A DNA stretch of 64,000 nt from Pseudomonadota bacterium (lineage in GTDB: Bacteria; Pseudomonadota; Alphaproteobacteria; Sneathiellales; Sneathiellaceae): NCBI GenBank assembly GCA_024743055.1, contig JANSXH010000002.1, forward strand, positions 124,001 to 188,000, written 5' to 3'. The translations under genes were made by a program, and so were the position numbers. The notes below the pieces were generated by a model. The model searched no databases and was not told the DNA's origin. It saw nothing but the letters and a program-made list of their open reading frames with translations. How positions within the stretch are numbered: position 1 is the stretch's first letter; each line of letters starts with the position of its first letter. Positions 20,386 to 25,919 of the stretch are shown here, one piece after another.

Positions 20386-21012
20386 TCAGGCTTCTTCCTC
20401 TTCAGGATCAAAACGGTCCTCGCCGTCTTCCTCATCCTCGTCCTCACCGTCATTTCCGGATAAATCCCGAAAGATACCACTTGGCTCAGTATCGAGTAGA
20501 CCCGCAGCTTTGAGCTCATCAAATCCAGGCAGATCCTTGATATCGTCGAGCCCGAAATGAATCAGAAATTCTTCCGTAATGCCGTAGGTGACCGGCCGGC
20601 CCGGTGTCCGACGACGACCGCGCGGTCGGATCCAGCCGGCATCGAAAAGGACATCCATGGTTCCGCGACTGAGGCCAACTCCGCGTGTTTCTTCAATCTC
20701 GGCCCGGGTGACCGGTTGGTGATAAGCGATTATCGCCAGGGTCTCGAGCGCGGCACGGCTCAGGCGTCGTGTCGTTTCCCGTTCCTCTTCCAGCATCCAG
20801 GCCAAATCCGGTGCGGTTAGAAAAGTCCATTTCCCAGCCAGGCGCGTAAGATTGACCCCTTTATGACGATATTGCTCTTCTAGAGTTTCAAGCACGGCAT
20901 CAATGTCGGCGCCGTCGGGCAGACGAGCGGCCAGGGTTGCAGCATCCAGCGGCTCGCTCGCGGCGAACAGCAGAGCCTCGGCCATACGGACATGTTCGGG
21001 ATCGACTGTCAT
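20386..21012 (-). CDS. scpB: segregation and condensation protein B
   Basis: A 208-residue kleisin-associated winged-helix protein that works with ScpA and SMC in chromosome condensation. The family marks AEALLFAASEPL at the start and LETLAIIAYHQPVTRAEIEETRGV in the middle are clear. The C-terminal tail is very acidic (runs of Asp and Glu), a common but variable extension. Its start overlaps the scpA stop by 4 bases, indicating translational coupling. Confidence 0.96.
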   Translation of the reverse strand: MTVDPEHVRMAEALLFAASEPLDAATLAARLPDGADIDAVLETLEEQYRHKGVNLTRLAGKWTFLTAPDLAWMLEEERETTRRLSRAALETLAIIAYHQPVTRAEIEETRGVGLSRGTMDVLFDAGWIRPRGRRRTPGRPVTYGITEEFLIHFGLDDIKDLPGFDELKAAGLLDTEPSGIFRDLSGNDGEDEDEEDGEDRFDPEEEEA

Positions 21013-21803
21013 TTCCCGTCTTTCCTTTTCTTGACTTCAATCGGGGCGAAGGTCGCGGACTGGCGCAATTCCAGCTGCCCTTCCTTGGCCATTTGCAAAC
21101 TGGCTAGCAATGTCGAGGCTTGCGCCGAGCGCTGGCTGAATGGATCAGTGAGGTTTTCCGGTAAGTAAGACATCAGATCCGTCCATTCCGGCAGCTGACC
21201 AAGCATTTTCTCCAGCCGGTCCAGCGCCGCCTCTACCGAATAAACCGCTTCACGCATCAGGCGCAGTGGATTGGTGTTGCCCTTTCGCGTTTTCTGGTCC
21301 GCATAGGCCTGGAGCAAATCACGAAGACTGCATTCATATTTGGAATGACGGATGATCCGCACCCCTTCGGGCCGTCCCCGCTGCAGCTGATCACGGCCAA
21401 CAACCGTTCCATTTAACAGCTTCTCGGAGGCAGCGCGCATGGCTTCCAGTTTGCGCAATTGAAAGGCCAGTCGGTCAGCCAACTCTTCTCCGGTGGGTCC
21501 ATCATCTTCCTGCGCTGGTAACAGCAATCTCGATTTGAGATAGGCAAGCCAGGCTGCCATCACTAGATAATCCGCTGCGATTTCAAGCCGCAGCTTCTGG
21601 ACCTCCTCGACGAAGCTCAAATACTGTTCCGCCAGATCGAGAATCGAGATTTTCAGGAGGTCAACCTTCTGGTCCCGGGCGAGCACCAGCAGCACATCCA
21701 GCGGTCCCTCATAGCCATCCAGGTCAACGACGAGCGAGCTTGTCGGCAAAGGAATGACATCCGGATTTTCCCGCCCCGCTTTGTCAAATGACCCTGTGTC
21801 CAC
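21009..21803 (-). CDS. scpA: segregation and condensation protein A
   Basis: A 264-residue kleisin. The N-terminal region VDLDGYEGPLDVLLVLARDQKVDLLKISILDLAEQYL binds the SMC neck; the C-terminal part binds the SMC head. The length is typical. It precedes scpB with a 4-base overlap and follows an M50 protease gene by about 48 bases. In most Alphaproteobacteria nagZ directly precedes scpA; here the protease is inserted between them. Confidence 0.96.
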   Translation of the reverse strand: MDTGSFDKAGRENPDVIPLPTSSLVVDLDGYEGPLDVLLVLARDQKVDLLKISILDLAEQYLSFVEEVQKLRLEIAADYLVMAAWLAYLKSRLLLPAQEDDGPTGEELADRLAFQLRKLEAMRAASEKLLNGTVVGRDQLQRGRPEGVRIIRHSKYECSLRDLLQAYADQKTRKGNTNPLRLMREAVYSVEAALDRLEKMLGQLPEWTDLMSYLPENLTDPFSQRSAQASTLLASLQMAKEGQLELRQSATFAPIEVKKRKDGK

Positions 21804-21851: not shown

Positions 21852-22538
21852 TTACGTCAAACCGGCCAGATTGGCAATGAGATTGACCACAAAGCTGATG
21901 GGTCCGGTCATCAACCAGGTGATGGGATCGATCTCCGCCCCGAGCTGACGGCTGATCATCGGCACGAAAAAAATTGCCCCGATCAGGATCAGAAAACCAA
22001 ACCGCTCCAGCCGGGCCAACGGGATCGCGAGACTGTCAGGTAGCAACCCAACCGCGACACGCCCTCCGTCCAGCGGCGGTAAAGGCAGCAGGTTGAAAAC
22101 GCCGAGGATGACATTGAGCAATATCCCGTTGCGGAAATTCTGGGCGAACCAGGTCACCGTGTCATCCGGCACGAAATGCAGAAGGTGAAATCCCAGAGCG
22201 AACAGAAAGGCGAGCAGGAAATTCATGGCCGGCCCCGCAAGGGCGACCCAAACCATATCCCGCCGCGGATTATTAAGGCGTCCGAAATGCACTGGAACGG
22301 GCTTGGCATAGCCAAACAGGAAGGGCGCTTTAAGCAGCAATAGCATACCCGGGATGAGAACTGTCCCGACGGGATCGATATGCTTGAACGGATTGAGGGT
22401 CACCCGTCCTTGCCTGTAGGCCGTATCGTCGCCGAGCCTGAGGGCCGCATAGCCATGGGCGGCCTCATGCAGGGTTATGGCCAGTAGCGCCGGAATGATC
22501 CAGACGGAAACTGTATAAAGAATACTTGTGATGTCCAA
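21852..22538 (-). CDS. site-2 protease family (M50) membrane metallopeptidase
   Basis: A 228-residue polytopic protease. The zinc-binding HEAAHG motif lies near residue 24, and the third ligand region FNLLPLPPLDGGRV lies near residue 165. There are about five or six membrane helices and no PDZ domain, which places it in the minimal rhomboid-like S2P group. The substrate is unknown. It lies 9 bases downstream of nagZ and is probably co-transcribed with it and with scpAB. Confidence 0.93.
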   Translation of the reverse strand: MDITSILYTVSVWIIPALLAITLHEAAHGYAALRLGDDTAYRQGRVTLNPFKHIDPVGTVLIPGMLLLLKAPFLFGYAKPVPVHFGRLNNPRRDMVWVALAGPAMNFLLAFLFALGFHLLHFVPDDTVTWFAQNFRNGILLNVILGVFNLLPLPPLDGGRVAVGLLPDSLAIPLARLERFGFLILIGAIFFVPMISRQLGAEIDPITWLMTGPISFVVNLIANLAGLT

Positions 22539-22547
22539 AATGGGCCC

Positions 22548-23585
22548 CTATTCCGCCGAGGCGAGAAGGTCGTTGAGTTGGGCAAGATCCCCGTCCCTGT
22601 CGAGCAGAGAAGTGGGATTGGCCATGAATTTTTCACCGCCGCGAATGCGACCGATGGCGGCGTCAGTAAGCGGCGGGCAGAGGGGCGCTACTTCCTCCAT
22701 TTCCGGCATCTTGCCGGAGCAATGAAGCACGATATCCACCCCGGCTTGCAGGGCGCGCTCCGCCCGCATGGCCAGGCTGCCTTTAAGGGCATTCATATTG
22801 AGATCATCGGTCAACAGCAGCCCGTCAAATCCGATTTCACCCCGGATAATGTCTTTGATGACGGTGGGAGACTGGGTCGCTGGCCATTTCGGATCAACCT
22901 GCTCAAACACAATATGGCTGGTCATGCCCCAGGGCAGATGGGAGAGCGCCTGAAACGGAACCAGGTCCGTCTGCTTCAGTTTTTCCAGGGAAACGGATAC
23001 CCTGGGTAACTCATGATGGCTATCGACGGTCGCCCGGCCATGTCCCGGCATATGTTTGATCACCGGCAGAACGCCGGCACCACGCATTTCCTCAGCCACC
23101 AGTTCTCCAAGCTCAATGATCACCTCAGGATCCGGGGCAAAGGCCCGATCGCCGATGGCATCGACGGTTTCCGGCAGGCGTAAATCCAGACAGGGCGTAC
23201 AATTGACGGAGATTCCGAGATCGACCAGATCCGTCGCAATCAGCCGCGACGTCAGGGCGAGAGCCTCCCGCGCACGATCCCGGTCTTCTTTGTAGAGGCG
23301 GCCAAAAAATCCGAAAGGCCGCGCATCAAACCAATGGGGGCTGCGTATCCGCTGTACCCGGCCACCTTCCTGATCGATCAGGACCGGCGCGTCATCCCGA
23401 CCGACCGACGCGCGAAGATCCCGCACCAGGGTTCTCACCTGATCTGGCGTTTCCATATTGCGAGCAAACAGAATGAAGCCGTATGGCTGTTGTTCAGCGA
23501 AAAACGCCTTCTCAGACGCACTCAGAACCGGTCCCAGGCATCCCAGGATTAGCGACCGGCAGCCGGTCAGATCACTTTGAGACAA
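22548..23585 (-). CDS. nagZ: beta-N-acetylhexosaminidase NagZ
   Basis: A 345-residue glycoside hydrolase family 3 enzyme that removes N-acetylglucosamine from muropeptides during cell-wall recycling. The active-site region VIKHMPGHGRATVDSHHELP holds the catalytic His-Asp pair. The nucleophile Asp is in DGLLLTDDLNMNAL. The length is normal. Its start overlaps the SPOR gene stop by 14 bases, so the two genes are coupled. Confidence 0.95.
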   Translation of the reverse strand: MSQSDLTGCRSLILGCLGPVLSASEKAFFAEQQPYGFILFARNMETPDQVRTLVRDLRASVGRDDAPVLIDQEGGRVQRIRSPHWFDARPFGFFGRLYKEDRDRAREALALTSRLIATDLVDLGISVNCTPCLDLRLPETVDAIGDRAFAPDPEVIIELGELVAEEMRGAGVLPVIKHMPGHGRATVDSHHELPRVSVSLEKLKQTDLVPFQALSHLPWGMTSHIVFEQVDPKWPATQSPTVIKDIIRGEIGFDGLLLTDDLNMNALKGSLAMRAERALQAGVDIVLHCSGKMPEMEEVAPLCPPLTDAAIGRIRGGEKFMANPTSLLDRDGDLAQLNDLLASAE

Positions 23586-24420
23586 CGAGGCAATCCTGCT
23601 TCTTGGCTTTCAGGGCGTCACAGAGCTTGTTGGCACCGGTCCGGTTGTCATAGGCCCCGGCCTGCAGACGATGGAAAGTCCCTTTTCCTTGTACGGTAAC
23701 ATCCTCCACCCGGTAGCTTACATTGCTCAGCAGCGCGCCAAATTTACTGTTGAGTATTTTCCATTGATTCTCCGCCGCATCGCTTGACCGGAACGATCCG
23801 AGCTGGACCCGATAACGGGTGCCGCTGGTGGCGGCAGGTTTGGCCTTGGGTTTTGGCGCCGGTTTGGGGGCCACAACAGCCACTTTTTCCTCAGCCTTTG
23901 GTTCCGTCGTTGTGGCTGGGGCCGCTTCTTTGACCGCGCTCTCAACAGTCTTTGTGGTCTCCTTGGCTTCCTGCTCCACCTTCTCAATGGTCTTGCCAAT
24001 CAGATCTTCTTTCGGCGCTTCTTCCGAACCTTCATTCGTTGCAGCGCTTGCCGTTGTGTTTTCTGCCGTCGCCGCAGGGGCATCATCGGTGGCTTCTTCC
24101 GGCGGCTGCATCAGTTTTTCAACGACAACCGTCTCCCCATCGGACTTCAGCACCCCGAACACCTGCTTGTCCTGATGGGGGATCTCCATCCCGCCCGGAT
24201 CTTCAGGCTTTTCCTTCACGGGTGTTGTGTCGGCACTGATGATCGGCGGCGCCAGTTGAACGCCTTTCTTGACCCCCTGATCATAGGCATACCAGATGCC
24301 CGTCCCGAAGCCAGCGACAATCAGCACGGCCAAGACGGCCATAATCAGCTTTCCCCGGCTCATGCGCGGCTCATCATCGCTATCATAGAAATCGTCATCG
24401 GGAAAATCGTTGCCAGACAC
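23572..24420 (-). CDS. SPOR-domain inner-membrane protein
   Basis: A 282-residue bitopic protein. A short acidic cytoplasmic part is followed by one membrane helix (about residues 25-48), then a long low-complexity Ala/Glu/Thr/Lys-rich periplasmic linker and a C-terminal SPOR domain (about 203-282, starting YRVQLGSFRSSDAAENQWKI). SPOR domains bind denuded peptidoglycan at the division septum. The stop overlaps nagZ and the start abuts the ArgRS-like gene stop (1-base overlap), consistent with an operon. Partner proteins are unknown. Confidence 0.92.
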   Translation of the reverse strand: MSGNDFPDDDFYDSDDEPRMSRGKLIMAVLAVLIVAGFGTGIWYAYDQGVKKGVQLAPPIISADTTPVKEKPEDPGGMEIPHQDKQVFGVLKSDGETVVVEKLMQPPEEATDDAPAATAENTTASAATNEGSEEAPKEDLIGKTIEKVEQEAKETTKTVESAVKEAAPATTTEPKAEEKVAVVAPKPAPKPKAKPAATSGTRYRVQLGSFRSSDAAENQWKILNSKFGALLSNVSYRVEDVTVQGKGTFHRLQAGAYDNRTGANKLCDALKAKKQDCLVVSK

Positions 24421-25448
24421 TACTCAAACTCCTTCTTTGCGGGGATCCCGAGAATATCAAGGGCCCCGGTCAATACGGTATCCACAGACTTCAGCAAGTA
24501 AAGACGTGCCGCACTTTTGCCGTGCTCATGCAAATAGTCCGAGGATACGGGGCGCACGGCCTCAACCAGTTGGAAAAATAGCAAGGATATGTCCTGCAGG
24601 AAAGACGTCAGATAAAAAACATCCTGCTTTTCAAGGCTCCGCTCCACGGCCAACGGCCAATGACAGAGCAGTTTCGTCAATTTCAGCTCCACTGTCCCCT
24701 CCAGGACCGATAAATCGGGAGCCTGTCCCTCACCCTCACCGGCATCAACTCCAGCCGTCAATTTGCGCGTCATCTGTCTCGCATAAGGTATGCAGAAAAC
24801 AGGATTATCATAGGATTTGTCTATGGCCAAATTAAGGCTGAAAGCCTTGGTAAAGGCTGGCGGATTGGCAATCAGGGCAAAGCGGGTATTGTATTTTCCG
24901 CATTTGGCAACCACCGGCTCAAGCGCCATGGTTTCCGCTTCATGGGGCGGTCCCGGCTCCTTCCGAAACTGCCAACCCGCAATTACAGCTAGCTGTTCCA
25001 GAATTTCACCATTGGCCTGTCGTCGGGCCTCGACCAGGTCCTGAACCTTGTCCGGGACCTCGATCAGAACGTCCCTCTTCTGCGCAGACACTTTTTCAAA
25101 GCCGAAATTCGACATCTCATGACAGAGCCGCGGCAGACTTTCCTGCCAGTAAGACGGCGCATAGCGCAGGTTGAGATAGCCATTTGACGAAACAGTAACC
25201 GACTGCATCTGATCCAGTTTTTGAAACGCCTGAAGGATCGGCTTTGCGGCCTCTTCAAAGGATATATTTTTCTCTTTTTTCAACAAGATAGGAGCATTTG
25301 TACAGAGATCACCCCAACTTTGTTCTTTTGGGGGTCGCAAAAACAGGCTTTCCTCAAAATCCGCGCGCGCCGCTTCATCTCTGAATTCAAGGCCTTGAAC
25401 CGCTGAATTCAGGGCTTTTTTGGCATATTCGAGGTAATTCAGGGACAT
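24420..25448 (-). CDS. arginyl-tRNA synthetase-like protein lacking the catalytic core
   Basis: A 342-residue protein in the position where argS normally stands. Residues 1-100 match the ArgRS N-terminal domain (SWGDLCTNAPILLKK, then GYLNLRYAPSYWQESL). Residues 186-342 match the end of the core plus the DALR anticodon-binding domain (RFALIANPPAF, NLAIDKSYDNPVF, and DILGIPAKKEFE at the end). ArgRS is usually about 580 residues. Here the Rossmann core is reduced to about 60 residues and both HIGH and KMSK are absent, although DVLIEV still aligns with the strand before HIGH. The frame is intact with no stop or frameshift, so it is a stable short form. It cannot charge tRNA by itself; tRNA binding or a regulatory role is inference. 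A functional argS must be elsewhere. Confidence 0.85.
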   Translation of the reverse strand: MSLNYLEYAKKALNSAVQGLEFRDEAARADFEESLFLRPPKEQSWGDLCTNAPILLKKEKNISFEEAAKPILQAFQKLDQMQSVTVSSNGYLNLRYAPSYWQESLPRLCHEMSNFGFEKVSAQKRDVLIEVPDKVQDLVEARRQANGEILEQLAVIAGWQFRKEPGPPHEAETMALEPVVAKCGKYNTRFALIANPPAFTKAFSLNLAIDKSYDNPVFCIPYARQMTRKLTAGVDAGEGEGQAPDLSVLEGTVELKLTKLLCHWPLAVERSLEKQDVFYLTSFLQDISLLFFQLVEAVRPVSSDYLHEHGKSAARLYLLKSVDTVLTGALDILGIPAKKEFE

Positions 25449-25568
25449 GGAGGCGATAACTTTTTTGAGGGTCGCAAATTGACAAAGACTGCTAGGGTTA
25501 ATACATCATTGAGTATATACTGTGTAAAATATTGGCACATGTTCTTTATTTTCAGGAATTAGGGCAAA

Positions 25569-25919
25569 ATGTTTGCAACGGACACCATGGAGCCGCCGGT
25601 CAAACTCTCAGAATCGGCTGCGGACAGAATCAACGTGATTGTCGAGGAAATGAAATCCGACAAGAAGATGCTGCGCGTGGCTGTCAATGGCGGTGGCTGC
25701 TCCGGTTTCCAGTACAGCTTCGACCTTGAAGATACCCAGAACCCGGACGATGTGGCCGTGGTCAACAAAGGCGCCACCTTGCTGGTCGACCAGATTTCGC
25801 TGATGTATCTTGCCGGATCGGAAATCGACTATGTGAATGACCTGATCGGGGCCTCCTTTCAGATAAAAAATCCCAATGCGACGGCTTCCTGTTCCTGCGG
25901 ATCCTCATTTGCCGTTTAA
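25569..25919 (+). CDS. erpA: iron-sulfur cluster insertion protein ErpA
   Basis: A 116-residue A-type carrier that delivers Fe-S clusters to apoproteins. The three cluster cysteines are visible: one in NGGGCSGFQYSF and two in the C-terminal SCSCGSSF. The start ATG at 25569 begins the usual short variable N terminus. It is divergent from the ArgRS-like gene with 120 bases between, and is followed by a hairpin terminator and then xth. Confidence 0.95.
   Translation: MFATDTMEPPVKLSESAADRINVIVEEMKSDKKMLRVAVNGGGCSGFQYSFDLEDTQNPDDVAVVNKGATLLVDQISLMYLAGSEIDYVNDLIGASFQIKNPNATASCSCGSSFAV

Follow-up and report, generated by a model that had tools for sequence, protein, structure and literature searches.

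The locus described here raises the question of why a bacterium would keep a relative of arginyl-tRNA synthetase (ArgRS) that has been deprived of its catalytic core. The gene lies in a 64,000-nucleotide stretch of a Sneathiella genome (contig JANSXH010000002.1 of assembly GCA_024743055.1), the whole of which is called the window below, and consists of an ATG-started open reading frame (ORF) without internal stops, which occupies positions 24420..25448 of the minus strand (stop codon 24420-24422) and encodes 342 amino acids. An earlier note on this DNA had described the product as an ArgRS relative with the N-terminal and DALR domains, about 60 residues of core and neither the HIGH nor the KMSK motif, and had given no strand. 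Pfam searches and alignment with intact enzymes confirmed this description, and we refer to the gene as the cored argS.

In the cored protein (P0001), Arg_tRNA_synt_N (PF03485; residues 11-95, E 4.7e-7) and DALR_1 (PF05746; residues 244-339, E 9.3e-8) were both found over their cut-offs, and Pfam returned no match to the class I catalytic domain tRNA-synt_1d (PF00750). The score against the arginyl-tRNA synthetase model TIGR00456 was 63.6 bits, below the curated cut-off of 261.65. Alignment with the native-type ArgS of an outgroup locus (L106; a trimmed row of 585 residues) showed that approximately residues 166-408, about 240 residues, are deleted and that the KMSK motif (397 in the native row) falls within this stretch. 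The HIGH motif was overwritten: the native HVGH (138 of the L106 row) aligns with D137-L138-V139-E140 of the cored protein (25029..25040, minus strand, as are all gene parts given here). What is left can be divided into an N-terminal D-loop-binding domain (residues 1-110, 25119..25448, placed by PF03485 and a predicted model), a remaining piece of the catalytic core (residues 111-172, 24933..25118, placed by alignment and predicted secondary structure), which comprises the core's first strand and helix and in which D-L and R142 are conserved, a segment that we label the stem-contact segment (residues 173-232, 24753..24932, placed by alignment) and the DALR anticodon-binding domain (residues 233-342, 24423..24752, placed by PF05746). 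The stem-contact segment is the best-conserved part, with 14 of its 60 columns at 90% or more. Among 22 aligned orthologues, one of which (G002) ends at a contig end, DALR_1 was detected in 21 and the N domain in 17; matches to any further family, PF00750 included, were absent at E up to 0.01. The deletion is common to the orthologues. The predicted structures suggest that the N and DALR domains keep the ArgRS-like, tRNA-gripping fold and their mutual arrangement.

The cored gene was found in 21 of the 24 Sneathiella genomes, the window's own (an 86% complete assembly) counted, and the three genomes without it are assemblies of 56-66% completeness. Since the same coring recurs in 20 of the 23 other Sneathiella genomes and in the sister genus, an assembly deletion, which by the earlier note would have refuted its reading, could be ruled out. 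A scan of named genomes yielded 14 loci, including those of S. litorea, S. chungangensis, S. chinensis, S. sedimenti, S. glossodoripedis and metagenome bins. In one of the bins, labelled Rhodobacteraceae (NORP251, locus L126), the cored gene shares 52% identity with that of the window over residues 1-342; this bin probably belongs to a Sneathiella relative and bears the wrong label. In the sister genus (G024), a copy that has diverged strongly was recognised from its locus, as it occupies the corresponding site between the SPOR and iron-sulfur (Fe-S) genes; both Pfam domains score over cut-off and the predicted fold appears to be kept despite an identity of 21%. Since this copy escaped a single-sequence search, further diverged cored genes may also have been overlooked. 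When 385 genomes drawn from the class were scanned, the near-full-length matches among those listed came from five Sneathiella only; the same scan gave two short open frames, of 268 aa in G092 and of 304 aa in G262. Twenty-one copies, that of G024 among them, do not run into a contig end, and 20 of these have an intact frame. In G009 the cored copy shows a frame change near its 5′ end and is split between two frames, and the full-length ArgS gene of the same assembly has an in-frame TAG (loci L052 and L053, G009:C12:832409-833487, and L072 near 7836). The 21 cored rows analysed below include G009, represented by the frame without its 5′ end, while the contig-cut G002 was dropped from the tree, profile and substitution-rate counts.

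Two types of ArgS were distinguished among the Alphaproteobacteria examined, which we call native and E. coli-like. Native argS adjoins the SPOR-nagZ-scpA-scpB cluster, and SPOR follows it in 18 of the 19 outgroup loci, which were fetched because they matched; the ArgS of the other 18 loci are 51-65% identical to that of L106, and 18 of the 19 are 23-28% identical to E. coli ArgS (the nineteenth gave a 135-residue local match of 37%). The E. coli-like type shows 35-40% identity to the E. coli enzyme and is not linked to the cluster. The Sneathiella counterpart of the native slot holds the cored gene, with SPOR after it and the Fe-S gene before it in 19 of 20 loci each, the exceptions being contig ends. 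The NPVF indel, two extra residues in the stem-contact segment, is present in 21/21 cored and 19/19 native rows but in 0/18 E. coli-like rows, and an extra residue at KFEGR has the mirror-image distribution. Moreover, a native profile scored above an E. coli-like profile in all 21 cored rows. A tree separated cored (99/96), native (94/79) and E. coli-like (100/100) groups, the cored group joining close to the native one; it used eight of the 22 Sneathiella ArgS and omitted L119 (G054), the ArgS of which is only 34% like the L106 native enzyme. The tree was unrooted, the branches to the cored and the E. coli-like groups were long, and three cored rows were of odd composition. It cannot by itself name the sister of the cored group, and the origin rests on the locus, the indel and the profile scores. 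These led us to reject both arrival by transfer and derivation from the genome's own E. coli-like ArgS, the rare NPVF indel being decisive for native parentage. We concluded that, judged by its sequence and position, the cored gene is the native alphaproteobacterial argS, still in its ancestral place. Viral spread was likewise rejected: among viral contigs, 13 stretches fitted the pattern, and none of them encodes a relative. A role in anti-phage defence was discarded as well, P0001 having no PADLOC match at E up to 1.

As the earlier note's reading implied, a full-length argS exists elsewhere in the genome: the window's own ArgS (615 aa, all three domains) is encoded on a different contig of the same assembly. 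PF00750 was matched in 22 of the 24 Sneathiella genomes, the window's own and the TAG-containing gene of G009 counted, and in neither G002 nor G017. The E. coli-like type was identified in these 22 genomes, in G024 and in eight genomes of other lineages (G027, G028, G039, G061, G064, G070, G081 and G086). At L183:5501-7348, a Sneathiella argS of this type is flanked by two other genes, which look to us like groEL and a class II aldolase gene. With regard to the tRNAs, no tRNA-Arg-ACG was seen in the window's assembly, which is 86% complete and in which 32 of 39 tRNA hits could be typed. A tRNA-like gene beside tRNA-Asn (L155:1575-1651, minus strand) was called by ARAGORN as tRNA-Ala with the anticodon AGC, unusual in a bacterium, and looks like a degenerate tRNA.

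Native argS has gone from the cluster in many alphaproteobacterial lineages, and the eight genomes of this kind that were typed have the unlinked E. coli-like ArgS. Fourteen loci of other lineages (L108-L110 and L141-L151, from G028, G064, G039, G188, G061, G163, G086, G027, G171, G114, G070, G159, G194 and G081) lack a native-type match. Thirteen of them are complete at the site, where SPOR is followed by dgt (12 loci; the label was given by us from the sequence in L106) or by the Fe-S gene (one locus), and the fourteenth is truncated by the end of its contig. The cored profile had no match over the 14 loci, and the 13 complete sites show no remnant; the native profile gave three weak matches of 12.7 bits or less, all in frames of 880-911 aa that lie beyond the interval between SPOR and dgt or the Fe-S gene. 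Seven of the 13 complete cases were typed, and all seven have a confirmed E. coli-like ArgS. Thus, loss of native argS mostly leaves nothing, and coring was seen only in the family of Sneathiella and G024. The dgt gene is absent from the ancestral slot in Sneathiella (25449-25568 of the window), and a dGTPase-family gene is located elsewhere in 23 of the 24 genomes, in the window's own at G000:C21:54466-55716.

The ratio of nonsynonymous to synonymous substitution rates (dN/dS) was determined for the six closest species of the genus, the window's own genome being excluded as too diverged. The cored gene had a median dN/dS of 0.29 (range 0.22-0.38, 15 pairs), compared with 0.042 for ArgS and 0.03-0.13 for seven neighbours in the same species. 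The cored gene is consequently under purifying selection, more loosely than its neighbours, which bears out the assertion that its clean frame reflects selection and not decay. Among the tRNA-facing residues, the A20-pocket motif Y91-L92-N93 (25170..25178, minus strand) corresponds by alignment to F82-I83-N84 of E. coli ArgRS, of which F82 and N84 play a part in the A20 pocket according to the available text of PMC8975779. The asparagine is retained in 21/21 rows of one alignment and is invariant across the 22 rows of another, while at the F82 position 18 of 21 rows have tyrosine and three have aspartate. D47 (25308..25310, minus strand), the equivalent of E. coli D38 of the GDYQ motif, is likewise invariant in 22. 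Of the other pocket positions, that of F36 is aromatic in 17 of 21 cored rows, and Q40 and A78 are not kept.

The cored gene is followed on the minus strand by genes for a SPOR-domain protein (23572..24420; PF05036), a family 3 glycosyl hydrolase (22548..23585; PF00933), which we take to be nagZ, an M50 peptidase (21852..22538; PF02163), scpA (21009..21803; PF02616) and scpB (20386..21012; PF04079). On the other side, a divergent Fe-S biosynthesis gene, presumably erpA, lies on the plus strand (25569..25919; PF01521); together with an exonuclease/phosphatase family member, these products were the seven neighbours scanned. The SPOR start overlaps the stop of the cored gene by 1 nt in the window, and the junction spans -4 to 0 nt in all 20 relatives where it is uncut. 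In the native loci, the next long ORF begins -4 to +5 nt from the argS end in 14 of 19, a count that takes the first ORF of at least 180 aa after argS and not a checked SPOR gene. The divergent intergenic region (25449..25568, no strand assigned) contains two blocks nearly invariant in an alignment of 11 Sneathiella, ATGATGTATTAA-like and TTTGTCAAT, which are probably a shared promoter or operator; no sigma-70 promoter was found by consensus in 25300-25700. The earlier note had suggested a link between tRNA state and the cell-wall and SMC genes downstream. This suggestion found no support, because the same gene order surrounds catalytic argS in the outgroup Alphaproteobacteria; being ancestral, the order is uninformative about a new role, and a function read from the operon neighbours was rejected.

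Considering these results, we regard it as fairly probable that the cored native argS has been retained as a putative tRNA-Arg-specific binder that does not charge. The ancestral argS would have kept its place while charging passed to the unlinked E. coli-like ArgS, a handover that we would place in the lineage of Sneathiella and its sister genus. Freed of charging, the native gene would then have shed about 240 core residues, and the compact protein, with its N domain on the D-loop/A20 side and DALR on the anticodon side, would now be held by selection. Binding of tRNA-Arg is plausible: the protein may clamp it at the elbow and the anticodon and leave the acceptor end free, and would neither make arginyl-adenylate nor charge any tRNA. 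Such a binder could buffer or chaperone the tRNA or present it to another enzyme. A sharper form of the same explanation, which we consider unlikely, is that of an adaptor bringing tRNA-Arg isoacceptors to a non-specific tRNA-modifying enzyme, as vertebrate DALRD3 does for METTL2. In DALRD3, the DALR domain stands without any recognizable synthetase catalytic motif, and the protein targets tRNA-Arg-CCU/UCU (PMC7237682, as far as the available text goes); the cored protein, with DALR retained and catalytic motifs and core gone, follows the same logic; yet, no candidate enzyme is encoded among the seven neighbours, to which the search for a METTL2-like partner was confined. It is doubtful that tRNA binding has been lost and the ArgRS chassis now serves as a protein-binding scaffold or regulator, in the manner of HisZ for HisG. 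The fast evolution of the gene, the incomplete A20 pocket (with Q40, A78 and, in three species, F82 replaced) and the peak of conservation in the stem-contact segment instead of the pocket would fit such a scaffold, but the invariance of N93 and D47 and the predicted retention of both tRNA-facing end domains in their arrangement argue against it.

The tight junction with SPOR, conserved in the relatives and similar in native loci, raises the possibility that the ORF is only a translated leader, needed for coupled translation of the cluster via the SPOR start. Coupling constrains a frame and leaves amino acids free, so it cannot explain the dN/dS of the cored gene or a fold that, in the models, persists in the diverged G024 copy, and thirteen other loci run without any argS before SPOR. 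Hence, we judge a leader quite improbable, although the initial retention of a translated frame may owe something to coupling. Assistance to the true synthetase, put forward in the earlier note and conceivable as delivery of tRNA-Arg in trans, is scarcely more probable. The co-occurrence of coring and the E. coli-like ArgS in both genera of the family would be expected from it, but the seven genomes with a confirmed E. coli-like ArgS and no remnant at the locus indicate that this ArgS type does not need the cored gene in general, and the genome's own ArgS carries all three domains. That the gene is a decaying pseudogene or an artefact is hardly credible. The looser constraint and the split G009 copy, from an assembly with a TAG in its argS, could be read in this way, but the frame has stayed intact in nearly all uncut copies over a mean pS of 0.72 (210 pairs of the whole cored set), and dN/dS is well below 1. 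Together with the lineages that show clean loss, Sneathiella offers a natural experiment on the worth of an anticodon-reading domain once charging has been handed over, and as the genus includes cultured marine species, deletion and tRNA pull-down should be practical.

One of the closest known systems is the native alphaproteobacterial ArgRS itself, which shares with the cored protein the locus, the indel, the N domain, the stem-contact segment and DALR, and differs in having the catalytic domain, HIGH and KMSK. The origin of a catalytically dead synthetase is unusually clear here, because locus, indel and related lineages record each stage: native argS, charging by another ArgS type, then clean loss (13 loci) or coring (one family). 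Re-use of a synthetase fold outside charging is known from HisZ, PoxA/GenX, Glu-Q-RS/YadB and SLIMP, of which PoxA and Glu-Q-RS remain able to activate an amino acid; the available part of this survey of synthetase-like proteins names no ArgRS-derived bacterial example (PMC9437257). Relatives of synthetases that have lost catalysis or been put to other uses are thus a known kind, and a bacterial ArgRS that lost its core within its own operon, with charging done by another ArgS type, is an unreported variant as far as the open-licence literature goes, where no earlier report of the Sneathiella protein was found. The nearest protein with a known task is DALRD3, which steers METTL2 to tRNA-Arg and for which an origin from a duplicated ArgRS gene was put forward as one possibility (PMC7237682, available text). 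DALRD3 is eukaryotic, however, and its partner is an m3C32 methyltransferase. It is conceivable, but improbable, that the Sneathiella protein is a separately arisen bacterial counterpart, a displaced native synthetase that became, within its own operon, a hollow specificity subunit, which reads A20 and the anticodon of tRNA-Arg and passes the tRNA with a free acceptor end to another enzyme.

The nearest named family is NrtL (NF045898, "ArgS-related anticodon-binding protein"), for which a literature search found no paper and which was compared through its model only. It has the same architecture and size as the cored protein, and its 327-position model matches residues 28-337 of 342 in one stretch (model 24-323), which implies that about the same core is missing in both. 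The cored protein is not a member, since it scores 57.5 bits against a curated cut-off of 340, which none of the 24 Sneathiella genomes passes, and the origin of the Sneathiella gene lies in the argS of its own locus. Should the Sneathiella protein be such a bacterial counterpart of DALRD3, NrtL-like proteins would be further cases of the same coring, and new tRNA-binding proteins could arise repeatedly wherever one synthetase type displaces another.
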